Origin: Methylococcus sp. EFPC2
GTDB lineage: Bacteria > Pseudomonadota > Gammaproteobacteria > Methylococcales > Methylococcaceae
Direction: 5' to 3'
Length of the DNA: 64,000 bases
Assembly (NCBI RefSeq): GCF_016925495.1
Contig: NZ_CP070491.1
Span: 3,100,001-3,164,000, forward strand
The notes beneath the pieces are model-generated. The model made no database searches. It was not told where the DNA came from and worked only from the letters and a program-made list of their open reading frames with translations. Positions 41,474 through 60,358 of this stretch are shown here, in pieces; position 1 is the first letter of the stretch; each line of letters begins with the position of its first letter. The translations under genes were made by a program, and so were the position numbers.

Positions 41474-42142
41474 TCACCAAGGCGTGGGAGGCTTCCGGTG
41501 TATGCGGATGGATTTGGGCTCAACGGTTACGTAGCCGTCATCACTCAACTCCTTCATGATCTTGCTGATCATCTCGCGCGACGCGCCCACGATGCTTCCC
41601 AACTCCTGATGTTTGAACCGCTCTTTGACCACCCATTCGCCGTTTTCCTCGACGGCCAGTTCCATCAGGGTTCTTACCAGGCGGCCGTAGACGTCGAACA
41701 ACATCAATCCGCGGACGTTTTCGGTAAGCAGGCGTATGCGCTTGGTCAACCCGCGCATCAATCCCATGCCGGCTTCGTCCGGGTGCGCGTGCAGCCAGCC
41801 CAGGAAAGCCTGTCGGGGAACCAAGGCGCACACGGTAGCTTCCATCGTCATGACCGAAGCCGAGCGCGGTTGGCCATCCAGCAACGAAAGCTCGCCGAAA
41901 TAGGACGGCTGCCCTTGCATCGAGAGCGTCACCTCTTTGCCGTTCTCGTCGTTCAGAAAGGTACGAACCCGACCGGACAAAACGACGAACAGGGGTCCTG
42001 CCTCGTCGCCCTCGTTGATGATGATCGCACCTTTGGGGAACGTCTTCCGGACAGCGCAGGCCGCAAGCTTGGATAGAATCTCGTCCGGAATATCCGAAAA
42101 ATACGGAATGCTCTTGAGGCCTGAGAGGGTATTGTGCGGCAC
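41474..42142 (-). CDS. Crp/Fnr-family regulator, cyclic-nucleotide-binding type
   Basis: 222 residues. The N-terminal cNMP domain has the phosphate-binding cassette FGELSLLDGQPRSASV near residues 82-97, with the Gly-Glu and Arg-Ser/Ala expected for cAMP (or c-di-GMP) binding. A long dimer helix and a winged HTH (KHQELGSIVGASREMISKIMKEL) follow. There are no Fe-S cysteines, in contrast to the FNR at 44645. It is nearer to CRP/Clp than to FNR; targets are unknown. Confidence 0.88.
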   Translation of the reverse strand: MPHNTLSGLKSIPYFSDIPDEILSKLAACAVRKTFPKGAIIINEGDEAGPLFVVLSGRVRTFLNDENGKEVTLSMQGQPSYFGELSLLDGQPRSASVMTMEATVCALVPRQAFLGWLHAHPDEAGMGLMRGLTKRIRLLTENVRGLMLFDVYGRLVRTLMELAVEENGEWVVKERFKHQELGSIVGASREMISKIMKELSDDGYVTVEPKSIRIHRKPPTPW

Positions 42143-44052: not shown

Positions 44053-44217
44053 TCAGGGCTTGTGTAGGTAAGCCGAGTTGGCTGAATCTTCCGCGATAGC
44101 TTTTTGCGCAGTCTCATACTTGCCGTGTTCGCTGCTCTTGACCGTCCACAGCGTCAGGGCTGCAATGACAATGACTCCGCCGATGTAGGCCCAAAAATAA
44201 TCTTTCTGTTGTTCCAT
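44053..44217 (-). CDS. 54-residue single-helix membrane protein
   Basis: ATG at 44217 follows GGAGG with ideal spacing. The product begins MEQQKDYFWAYIGGVIVIAA, has one membrane helix (about 8-26) and a polar C-terminal tail ending YLHKP. I do not recognise the family; it is not CcoQ-like in sequence. An FNR box at 44299-44312 with a -10 match at the class II distance indicates oxygen-responsive expression. It lies two transcripts downstream of fnr on the same strand. Confidence 0.75.
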   Translation of the reverse strand: MEQQKDYFWAYIGGVIVIAALTLWTVKSSEHGKYETAQKAIAEDSANSAYLHKP

Positions 44218-44312: not shown

Positions 44313-44456
44313 TGAAAACTCATATTGAAAGCGAGGGGATCGACACTGTCGTGCTCTAAGCGCAGGGCAGACCGGCCGAGTGGAAGTACGGGCTGAGGGG
44401 ACGGGTGAGCGTTGCCCCAAAGCGGGACGCCGATACTGGGAGCGGAACGAAACGCG

Positions 44457-44492
44457 AAAAAAAAACGGAGCACGTCGATACGATGTGCTCCG
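44457..44492 (-). terminator. Strong intrinsic terminator
   Basis: CGGAGCAC (44466-44473) and GTGCTCCG (44485-44492) form an 8-bp stem extended by TCG/CGA beyond one weak pair. On the minus strand it is followed by nine U (complement of 44457-44465). It lies about 150 bp past the fnr stop, further than usual for the gene itself. Confidence 0.85.
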
Positions 44493-44542
44493 CAAGTGGT
44501 GTTGATGAGGTATCGGTAAGCGACTGGTCCCGCCTACCGCGT
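44457..44542 (-). ncRNA. Candidate FNR-dependent small RNA
   Basis: Predicted transcript of about 86 nt from 44542 to the terminator. Upstream are two FNR boxes, centred at -41.5 and -73.5 to the proposed start, and TAAACT (44554-44549, minus strand) at -12 to -7. The 3' end is a strong stem with nine U, suited to Hfq binding. No open reading frame with a ribosome site is seen in the transcript. The architecture parallels E. coli FnrS; no sequence relation is claimed. Confidence 0.45.
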
Positions 44543-44576
44543 GGCAACAGTTTAGTTTCGTGGGTCTGGCGGCGGG

Positions 44577-44590
44577 CTGATGTGTATCAA
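44577..44590. promoter_or_regulatory. FNR box, proximal
   Basis: CTGAT-GTGT-ATCAA matches the FNR consensus at nine of ten positions. Its centre is 41.5 bp upstream of the proposed sRNA start and 32 bp (about three helical turns) from the distal box. Confidence 0.65.
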
Positions 44591-44608
44591 GCCGCGGAAC
44601 CGAAAAAC

Positions 44609-44622
44609 TTGATCTCGATCAA
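44609..44622. promoter_or_regulatory. FNR box, distal (perfect)
   Basis: TTGAT-CTCG-ATCAA is an exact match to the FNR consensus. It lies 23 bp beyond the fnr stop, in non-coding sequence. Confidence 0.75.
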
Positions 44623-44644
44623 CCCGGTCTTGCGGAGCCGGCAT

Positions 44645-45370
44645 TCACCGGGGTGAGTAACGCTGCAATCCTTCCTCGTCAAGGATGCGGATCAGCTTTC
44701 CTTCGATGGCAATCAATTGCGCCGACTCAAACTGGCCCAACATTCTGCTCACCGTTTCCAGCGCGAGCCCGAGGTGATCGCCGATTTCCTGGCGCGTCAG
44801 CGTCAGGCGGAACTCCACATGCGAGAACCCCCGCAAGCGGTAGCGCTCGGATAAACTGAGCAGGAAAGCCGCGAGCCGCTGGTCCGCCGGCCGGCGTAGC
44901 AGCCTCATGCGCTCCAGACACTCGTCGAATTTGCCGCCTGTACGCTGCAAGATGACTTGATAAAGGGCTGGCATTTCCCTGCTCAATCGGTCGATTTGAT
45001 GCGAGGGAAGCTCGCAGAAGCTGACGGTTTCCAGAGCGACCACGGAACACAGATAACGGCCGGAGGCTACCCCGTCGAACCCGGCCAACTCGCCGGGAAG
45101 CAATAGGCTGACGATGGATTCGCTCCCCATCCGATCCATATGAACCAGTTTCGCCGTTCCGGACTTGAGGGCATAAATGCTGTTGTAATGCTCGCCAGCC
45201 TGATAGATATGTTCGCCCTTCCGCAAGGTACGGTTACGTCGAACGGTGTTGCTCAAGCGCTCGACGTCGCAATGGGTCAAGCCCTGAGGAATGCAAAGCT
45301 CGCCGAGATGACAATCATTGCAGGCGACTTGACTGCGCGTTTGTTGCACTTGTTGAAGTGAGGCTGCCAT
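44645..45370 (-). CDS. fnr: Fe-S oxygen sensor FNR
   Basis: 241 residues from ATG at 45370 (TTG at 45376 is an alternative). Cys17, Cys20 and Cys26 (CNDCHLGELCIP) plus Cys119 (VSFCELP) correspond to the four [4Fe-4S] ligands of E. coli FNR (20, 23, 29, 122), so it should dimerise and bind DNA only without oxygen. The recognition helix has Glu205, Ser208, Arg209 (ETVSR), which read TTGAT half-sites; boxes of exactly this type lie just downstream. It follows fbp on the same strand, after a hairpin at 45391-45411. Confidence 0.95.
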   Translation of the reverse strand: MAASLQQVQQTRSQVACNDCHLGELCIPQGLTHCDVERLSNTVRRNRTLRKGEHIYQAGEHYNSIYALKSGTAKLVHMDRMGSESIVSLLLPGELAGFDGVASGRYLCSVVALETVSFCELPSHQIDRLSREMPALYQVILQRTGGKFDECLERMRLLRRPADQRLAAFLLSLSERYRLRGFSHVEFRLTLTRQEIGDHLGLALETVSRMLGQFESAQLIAIEGKLIRILDEEGLQRYSPR

Positions 45371-45386
45371 TCGCAATTTGGCCGTT

Positions 45387-59056: not shown

Positions 59057-60358
59057 TCAGACTTTTTGCGGTGCGTCGAAGCGGTATCGATGCCCGTAGG
59101 CAAGGCCGCCCGCGAATAGGATCAACTGCCAGCCGTGCTGAAAATAGATGAGGCTGATGGAGAAATTATTCAGGACGATGATGGCGAACGTGCCCATCAG
59201 GCCCGCGAATAGCGCCGTTCCGTGCGGCAAAATGGTTGGCAGCTCCCGCGCCGCCCGATAAACGACGAGGGCTGCCGCGGCATAAAATGCCACGCCTATG
59301 AGGCCGGTGCGCACCAGCAGTTCCACCATGCCGTTGTGCAACTGCACGTTGTCGGACGATTCGGGATAAAGGGTATTGATGGCAATCAATTCCTTGACGT
59401 TGGGCCCCCAGCCGGTCAAGGGGCGCTGGAAAAAATAATCCAGGCCGATATGGGCCAAGCGAAAGCGGGTCCCGAGAGAACTCAAGGGCACATGCTGCCA
59501 GTCGCCGGAGAGGAGTGCCTGCCAGGTATCCGATTCATCGGTGAGTCGCGCGAACATCGCCGGCCCGAAGCCGTATCCGACCAGAACGGCGACCACCGCC
59601 AGCGTCCCGACCAGCGTTCGCAACTGACCCGCCGGCCCCTCTGCCCGCCGGACATACAGACAGGCCAGGGCAAGCAGTACGGCAGCCACGGTGGATATCC
59701 ACGAAGCCCGGGAAGACAAGGTCACCCAGACGTAAAGCAGCAGTCCCAGCACCGGCAACAGGGCGACCGTGGCCACCCCGGGCCGGCGGAACAGCGCGCT
59801 CCTCTGCTCGTTGAGCCACAGGATCAGCCCCAGGAGCCCGGCGTCGATCAGCGGTGCGGTGTTGTTGCGGTTGACACCCAGAGCCTTTTGCCAATTTGCA
59901 TAATCGAAGATCGGCCCCGGTTCGAACCAGTGACCGTCCAGGAGGATCTTGATCGACAAGCCCGCAAGTGCCAGCAGCAGGCTGATGCGCACCCGCTCCG
60001 CCCGGCCCTGTAAGGCTGCGGCGAACAGGGGAATGAAGGCGTAACCGTAGACCTCGATGAAAGACGGCAGCTTTTTCAGATCCAGCAGATAGAATTCGAT
60101 CACGCCCAGGACAGTGACATAAACGACCCAGGCGGCGCCGATGCGGACCATCGGGTCCGCCCACAGGCGTGCCCGATGATGGATCAGGTGCCAAAGGAAA
60201 GGCGCGGCCAACAGAGCGAGCGACACGTTGGCCAGGGCCTTGGACAAAGCGAGGCCCAGCGAGAAACCACCCAGCGCGGCCCATTCACAGCGAGTAACCC
60301 AGGCCGGTTCGGCGGCGTGATGCGCGGCGGTCACCGCCGGCGACAAAGTATCGTTCAT
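59057..60358 (-). CDS. waaL: O-antigen ligase-family protein
   Basis: 433 residues with about eleven to twelve hydrophobic segments. The large periplasmic loop near residues 268-325 with FQRPLTGWGPNVKELIAINT and the following LHNGMVELLVRTGLIG (His-rich end) is the Wzy_C ligase region that joins O-antigen to lipid A-core in the inner membrane. Wzy polymerases share this form; position within the core cluster favours the ligase. Its start overlaps the GT4 gene upstream by 4 bp. Confidence 0.85.
   Translation of the reverse strand: MNDTLSPAVTAAHHAAEPAWVTRCEWAALGGFSLGLALSKALANVSLALLAAPFLWHLIHHRARLWADPMVRIGAAWVVYVTVLGVIEFYLLDLKKLPSFIEVYGYAFIPLFAAALQGRAERVRISLLLALAGLSIKILLDGHWFEPGPIFDYANWQKALGVNRNNTAPLIDAGLLGLILWLNEQRSALFRRPGVATVALLPVLGLLLYVWVTLSSRASWISTVAAVLLALACLYVRRAEGPAGQLRTLVGTLAVVAVLVGYGFGPAMFARLTDESDTWQALLSGDWQHVPLSSLGTRFRLAHIGLDYFFQRPLTGWGPNVKELIAINTLYPESSDNVQLHNGMVELLVRTGLIGVAFYAAAALVVYRAARELPTILPHGTALFAGLMGTFAIIVLNNFSISLIYFQHGWQLILFAGGLAYGHRYRFDAPQKV

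Follow-up and report, generated by a model that had tools for sequence, protein, structure and literature searches.

The 64,000-nucleotide stretch of the Methylococcus sp. EFPC2 genome analysed here (the window) carries fnr, the gene of a presumed activator, on its minus strand, and the question raised by this locus is what is encoded in the DNA immediately downstream of fnr. An earlier note had proposed that an FnrS-like small RNA lies there, beside the gene of its own activator. The features that bear on this question are collected in Table 1.

Table 1. Features downstream of fnr, in window coordinates (position 1 is the first nucleotide of the window).
Feature	Position	Strand	Description
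fnr (243 aa)	44645..45376	-	Presumed activator; best NCBIfam match Fnr
Distal FNR box TTGATCGAGATCAA	44609..44622	-	10/10; centre about -73.5
Proximal FNR box TTGATACACATCAG	44577..44590	-	9/10; centre about -41.5, class II position
-10 element TAAACT	44549..44554	-	22 bp past the proximal box
Predicted 86-nt small RNA	44457..44542	-	5' end inferred from promoter geometry
5' hairpin	44514..44539	-	Predicted fold; 10 pairs, 6-nt loop GACCAG
Linker AUACCUCAUCAACACCACUU	44494..44513	-	20 nt, unpaired in the predicted fold; candidate pairing region
Intrinsic terminator	44457..44493	-	Predicted fold; hairpin plus nine U (44465-44457)
Third FNR box TTGACCCATATCAA	44299..44312	-	9/10; TATCGT at gap 22 (44276-44271), before the 54-aa ORF
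54-aa ORF	44053..44217	-	Putative small membrane protein, one hydrophobic stretch; second FNR-type unit behind fnr

The fnr product scored 212 bits against the NCBIfam Fnr model, slightly under the curated cut-off of 228, and residues C19, C22, C28, and C110 as well as the motif E207-T208-x-S210-R211, which we take to be positions meaningful in FNR, are invariant in an alignment of nine sequences. Read along the minus strand, the order of elements is the fnr stop codon, the distal box, the proximal box, TAAACT, the RNA, and the terminator. The two boxes, one perfect and one matching at nine of ten positions, were located on this strand with a spacing of exactly 32 bp as the earlier note had described, and TAAACT was present at the distance of a -10 element that gives the proximal box its class II geometry. 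At the sequence level, the locus thus has an FNR box at about -41.5 in front of a short unit, the arrangement looked for in an FNR-activated sRNA gene.

The predicted RNA folds with -34.8 kcal/mol over its 86 nucleotides, relative to a mean of -19 for shuffled sequences (z -5.4; 0 of 200 shuffles equal). The terminator part alone (44457-44495) gave a fold z of -5.2 and the 5' part a z of -2.9. The 3' stem followed by nine U was found where it had been described, and its absence from the output of a simple terminator scan is presumably because the stem carries an internal mismatch. It had also been claimed that no ORF with a ribosome site lies in the interval, and this agrees with the content of the 86 nucleotides, in which there is no ATG, one TTG, and one GTG, neither of the latter with a ribosome site. 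Fold and lack of coding signal together predict a short non-coding transcript with an intrinsic terminator. A scan of the whole window with Rfam returned no family at the gathering score, FnrS included, and a lax scan of 44400-44700 returned only McaS, 23S-methyl, and PyrR204 at E values of 1 to 9.6, all far under the cut-off. Therefore, the RNA may work in an FnrS-like manner without being FnrS itself.

The rarity of the boxes was evaluated against shuffled sequence. FNR boxes with at most one mismatch numbered six in the window, compared to 0.91 expected, and the two-box pattern with at most three mismatches had the 32-bp pair as its sole site in the window (0.03 expected), counted as one site that appears on both strands. 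With zero mismatches, NTGAYNNNNRTCAN-N18-NTGAYNNNNRTCAN matched only this pair in the 4.56-Mb genome. Perfect single boxes numbered six genome-wide, against an expectation of about 4.3 if the four bases were used evenly; the second one in the window (59376-59389) is within apparently coding sequence, as are three of the four outside the window. A perfect box was therefore rejected as proof by itself, its number being close to chance and most copies being in apparent coding sequence. A lone perfect box is weak evidence, and it is conservation that bears the argument.

The other non-coding perfect box in the genome (L222, G000:C1:2938132-2938145) precedes a putative bacteriohemerythrin gene, with TAGAGT at a 22-bp gap. 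Hemerythrin is described in PMC9241951 as rising at low oxygen in methanotrophs. Because a perfect box and TAGAGT stand before this putative gene, the FNR consensus and geometry look live in the organism.

Conservation of the promoter was evaluated among related fnr genes; in the set of 61 genomes, the window genome is the sole member of its own genus. We used 31 fnr rows, the window's included (30 loci from one search and one from a second, both confined to best matches). In each row, pairs of boxes with a spacing of 32 bp were sought between 20 bp before and 300 bp after the fnr stop codon, and the highest-scoring pair was taken. The score was the sum of the two boxes, and a -10 hexamer was sought at gaps of 20 to 24 bp. 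It was found that 8 of the 31 rows, representing five genera, had paired boxes with scores of 13 to 19, and that the remaining 23 scored 9 to 12. The rows with a pair are those of the window, G010 and G018, G007 and G016, G013, and G021 and G026. The best -10 hexamer sat at gap 22 in all eight, and when spacings of 14 to 59 bp were compared, 32 bp was the best in four rows and equal-best in the other four (G010, G018, G013, and G021). A tree of the 31 fnr rows placed all eight in one FNR clade of 11 members (support 100/98), the three members that lack the pair being G032, G005, and G059. On this tree the pair needs three label changes, and 0 of 500 shuffles were equally clustered; one gain and two losses of the paired promoter would fit.

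Most of the named relatives are methanotrophs belonging to the Methylococcales (Methylocaldum, Methylococcus, Methylomonas, Methylobacter, and Methylovulum). Among 80 named fnr loci, the arrangement was convincing in Methylocaldum sp. 14B (L056), PowLak16_MAG14 (L058), and WB5_2B_046 (L059). A loose rule flagged nine loci, and six of them (L083, L084, L091, L107, L113, and L128) were rejected by judgement, as one of the two boxes reached a score of just 6 or 7; except in L084, the pair also lay more than 270 bp past fnr.

What the paired promoter drives differs between genera. In the window and in the FNR sister genus (G010 and G018), it leads into a short terminated RNA. The G010 and G018 RNAs are 98 nt long, 92% identical with single-base indels, and built of a 5' stem, an open linker that is partly like that of the window RNA, and a terminator. 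Their fold z values were -3.5 and -1.7, respectively, the latter a weak fold that was equalled by 8 of 200 shuffles. The comparison of the interval downstream of fnr that had been suggested with the original claim was therefore positive for the boxes, kept as a paired promoter in eight genomes of five genera, and for the terminator, which ends an RNA of like anatomy in G010 and G018. In G007 and G016 (L167 and L166) the promoter leads into a longer terminated RNA of about 153 to 158 nt, which differs from the window RNA when compared by alignment and folding, and both FNR subclades contain terminated RNAs. In G013, G021, and G026 (L168, L170, and L169; two genera), the next gene is pmoC, and in G021 the box pair lies 188 bp past the fnr stop codon. 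No pmoA or pmoB frame was recognised after these three fnr-linked pmoC genes in the stretch examined. The window genome carries three pmoC genes, and the tandem promoter is absent before each of them, all eight two-box sites with at most two mismatches being elsewhere. A second CRP/FNR-family gene (G000:C1:3824819-3825424, minus strand) is divergent from and just upstream of one of these pmoC genes (L144, G000:C1:3825695).

The window RNA and the G010/G018 RNA have a common position behind fnr and a common promoter, and we asked whether they are one family. A covariance model built from the G010 and G018 RNAs only was run over both strands of the 64 kb and ranked the window site first, at 26.8 bits (E 1.5e-4), with a full-length match that starts 1 nt off the predicted +1 and a runner-up of 11.1 bits. 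Run over 38 genomes of the family, the same model gave matches in eight at E of at most 1, the window's own site being unreported at that threshold. Matches of 27.0 to 27.7 bits in G023, G027, G012, and G007 were judged to be unrelated terminators or RNAs because no FNR box of at least 8/10 was present in the 220 nt upstream. Since such unrelated-looking matches reach this score, the model score alone is no proof of homology. The matches in G016 and G020 and two weaker ones in G007 were not accepted as homologues either. With the terminator excluded, 28 to 29 of 1000 shuffles were as similar as the window RNA to the sister RNAs, so that homology of the RNA body to the G010/G018 RNA is suggestive. 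For the window RNA, a body in common with the pmoC leaders or with the RNA of g8 was not supported (z -1.1 to 1.6). In G023 and G027 (L184 and L186, two genomes of genus g10), the matched element lies between genes, is conserved, and ends in a terminator; it contains a stretch rich in A and C, lacks an FNR box, and is possibly another small RNA or leader.

Past the RNA unit, the 54-aa ORF also has an FNR box, which the earlier note had left unmentioned, and a -10, and therefore the locus consists of fnr followed by two FNR-type units. The ORF of the window had no Pfam or NCBIfam match. Its homologues, sought by tblastn over the collected loci (42 rows, several of which are overlapping copies of one genome), are near fnr in many Methylococcales loci. 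An FNR box of at least 8/10 was present in the 250 nt upstream in 34 of the 42 rows, and 30 of these 34 had a -10-like hexamer (at least 3/6) at gap 21 or 22; of the others, six had the upstream region cut off and two had only a 7/10 box. The window also contains another CRP/FNR-family regulator at 41474-42142 on the minus strand, whose best NCBIfam match is CRP at 108 bits (cut-off 266).

The genome has one hfq gene (103 bits), and targets of the RNA were sought by way of its linker. The reverse complement of the linker occurs with at most two mismatches at nine places in the genome, including the gene itself, and none of the seven that were inspected was judged to place the pairing at the start of a clear gene. 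L177 and L178, where the match contains the beginning of a long frame, and L175 and L176, where a frame of more than 70 aa begins 33 to 35 nt downstream, were judged spurious or internal as targets. A looser pattern like a Shine-Dalgarno (SD) sequence, allowing one mismatch, occurred 147, 71, and 68 times in three genomes compared to 92, 49, and 42 times for a reversed control that differs in coding bias. Three of the 24 SD-like loci listed had a long frame 4 to 13 nt downstream and were judged internal or weak. Scoring of duplexes with 69 start regions from the window, most of them unverified, and five chosen ones gave values no better than those of shuffled linkers (12 of 100 equal), and the best-scoring region falls inside thyA. 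Because the target searches yielded nothing, the feed-forward arrangement, in which FNR and the RNA would have to act on common targets, is still a hypothesis.

A mechanism can be proposed in which, as oxygen drops, FNR would bind the proximal box and activate RNA polymerase, and a second FNR dimer at the distal box, three helical turns upstream, might modulate or strengthen the activation. The transcript would end at the terminator, and the ACCU-containing linker between its two hairpins would pair with mRNAs, probably where ribosomes bind them and with the probable help of Hfq. In this way the sRNA may turn down functions that are unwanted at low oxygen, the targets and the sign of the regulation being speculative. 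The boxes, their spacing, the -10, the predicted fold, the terminator, the conserved promoter, and the hfq gene are seen in the DNA, and we infer transcription, FNR dependence, and Hfq binding of the RNA. An FNR-activated short transcription unit right behind fnr is well supported. The proposal of an FnrS-like sRNA beside its own activator thus holds for the short FNR-type unit, given the promoter of eight genomes and the terminated RNAs of the sister genus, and its action as an sRNA is only likely. We assign a probability of roughly 0.65 to the reading that this is a stand-alone, FnrS-like, base-pairing sRNA gene directly downstream of fnr and activated by FNR from a class II site. If it is real, the RNA would add a post-transcriptional arm to the oxygen response of aerobic methane oxidisers, organisms that are often found at oxygen's edge. 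At the level of titles and abstracts, we recognised no report in the open-licence literature of an FNR-dependent sRNA in a methanotroph.

The same unit could instead be the remnant leader of an FNR-driven stand-alone pmoC that was lost or never acquired, such that the promoter was kept and the RNA has little function. The same promoter precedes pmoC in G013, G021, and G026, and there is a likeness between the G021 leader and the RNA of G018 (z 4.6; 1 of 1000 shuffles equal), although it is one of 20 pairs tested and the z values were 1.5 for G021 with G010 and -0.5 for G026 with G018. The window RNA itself was unlike the three pmoC leaders (z -0.3 to 0.4). The strong terminator and the 92% identity between G010 and G018 suggest upkeep of the short RNA, and terminated RNAs in both FNR subclades are not predicted by a simple recent loss; we regard a remnant as unlikely. 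A cis-acting role, in which the terminator would be an attenuator with read-through into the 54-aa ORF 240 bp downstream, draws on the common strand and the FNR-type control of both units. Such a role seems quite improbable to us, as the ORF stands behind an FNR box and a -10 of its own and the predicted fold shows no antiterminator alternative. Furthermore, the homologous ORF is on the strand opposite to fnr in Methylovulum (L020 and L073) and in G005, and therefore the pairing of the RNA unit with the ORF is not kept.

That the RNA is merely a processed 3' end of the fnr mRNA, with fortuitous boxes, would be in line with its position about 100 nt past the fnr stop codon on the same strand. 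It is very improbable because the RNA has its own conserved promoter: the boxes, the 32-bp spacing, and the -10 gap are kept in eight genomes, and the G021 pair is as far as 188 bp from the stop codon. Finally, a very small protein might be encoded, since short frames beginning with TTG or GTG are present in all three RNAs and one with ATG in that of G010. The window RNA has no ATG, ribosome sites are absent, the frames differ between the window and the sister genus, and single-base indels separate G010 from G018, which together make a coding function scarcely credible.

The reading as an FNR-activated sRNA gene can be extended, with considerable doubt, to an ancestral FNR promoter behind fnr whose product switched between a regulatory RNA and a stand-alone pmoC. 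In that case the sRNA might be the former or future leader of the orphan methane-monooxygenase subunit, and both products might serve one low-oxygen methane-oxidation switch. If such a change of product took place, the leader in the genera with pmoC may still release an sRNA. An FNR-activated sRNA is of a kind already known, and interest is added by the promoter that is common to it and to stand-alone pmoC genes. If the sRNA gene is real, this one conserved promoter links FNR to these unexplained genes.

Among known systems, the fnrS gene of Escherichia coli is described in PMC3032703 as under FNR activation through a class II site centred on -41.5, and pulse-overproduction of FnrS is described in PMC8139620 as repressing more than 30 mRNAs with functions that are dispensable under anaerobiosis. 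The window RNA is like the FnrS of E. coli and other Enterobacteriaceae in the class II site at -41.5 and in being short, with mRNA repression known there and proposed here, and it is unlike FnrS in its tandem boxes and in having no Rfam FnrS match. To our knowledge, FnrS of E. coli is not located behind fnr. For Neisseria gonorrhoeae, PMC3032703 describes an FnrS with a class II FNR site, a 5' stem loop, an unstructured stretch, and an intrinsic terminator. The window RNA can be likened to it, by description, in its class II site and in the sequence of stem loop, open stretch, and terminator; the gonococcal gene, however, is in another genomic place and has a single predicted site, as opposed to the tandem promoter behind fnr in the window. 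The gonococcal RNA is also named AniS.

In the pairs oxyS/oxyR and gcvB/gcvA, the sRNA gene adjoins the gene of its own activator, and the two genes are divergent. The window locus is similar in that a regulator and the sRNA it presumably activates are neighbours, and different in that the RNA gene follows that of the regulator on one strand and that the regulator is FNR. A stand-alone pmoC of Methylocaldum, called Type 4, is described in PMC11931723 as adjoining a gene that encodes a regulator domain of the fumarate/nitrate-reduction type, and judged by their neighbour gene, the pmoC genes of G021 and G026 would be of this type. In these two genomes, the position behind fnr and the tandem promoter with its 32-bp spacing are as in the window, whereas the transcript there would enter pmoC and that of the window would stop at the terminator after 86 nt.
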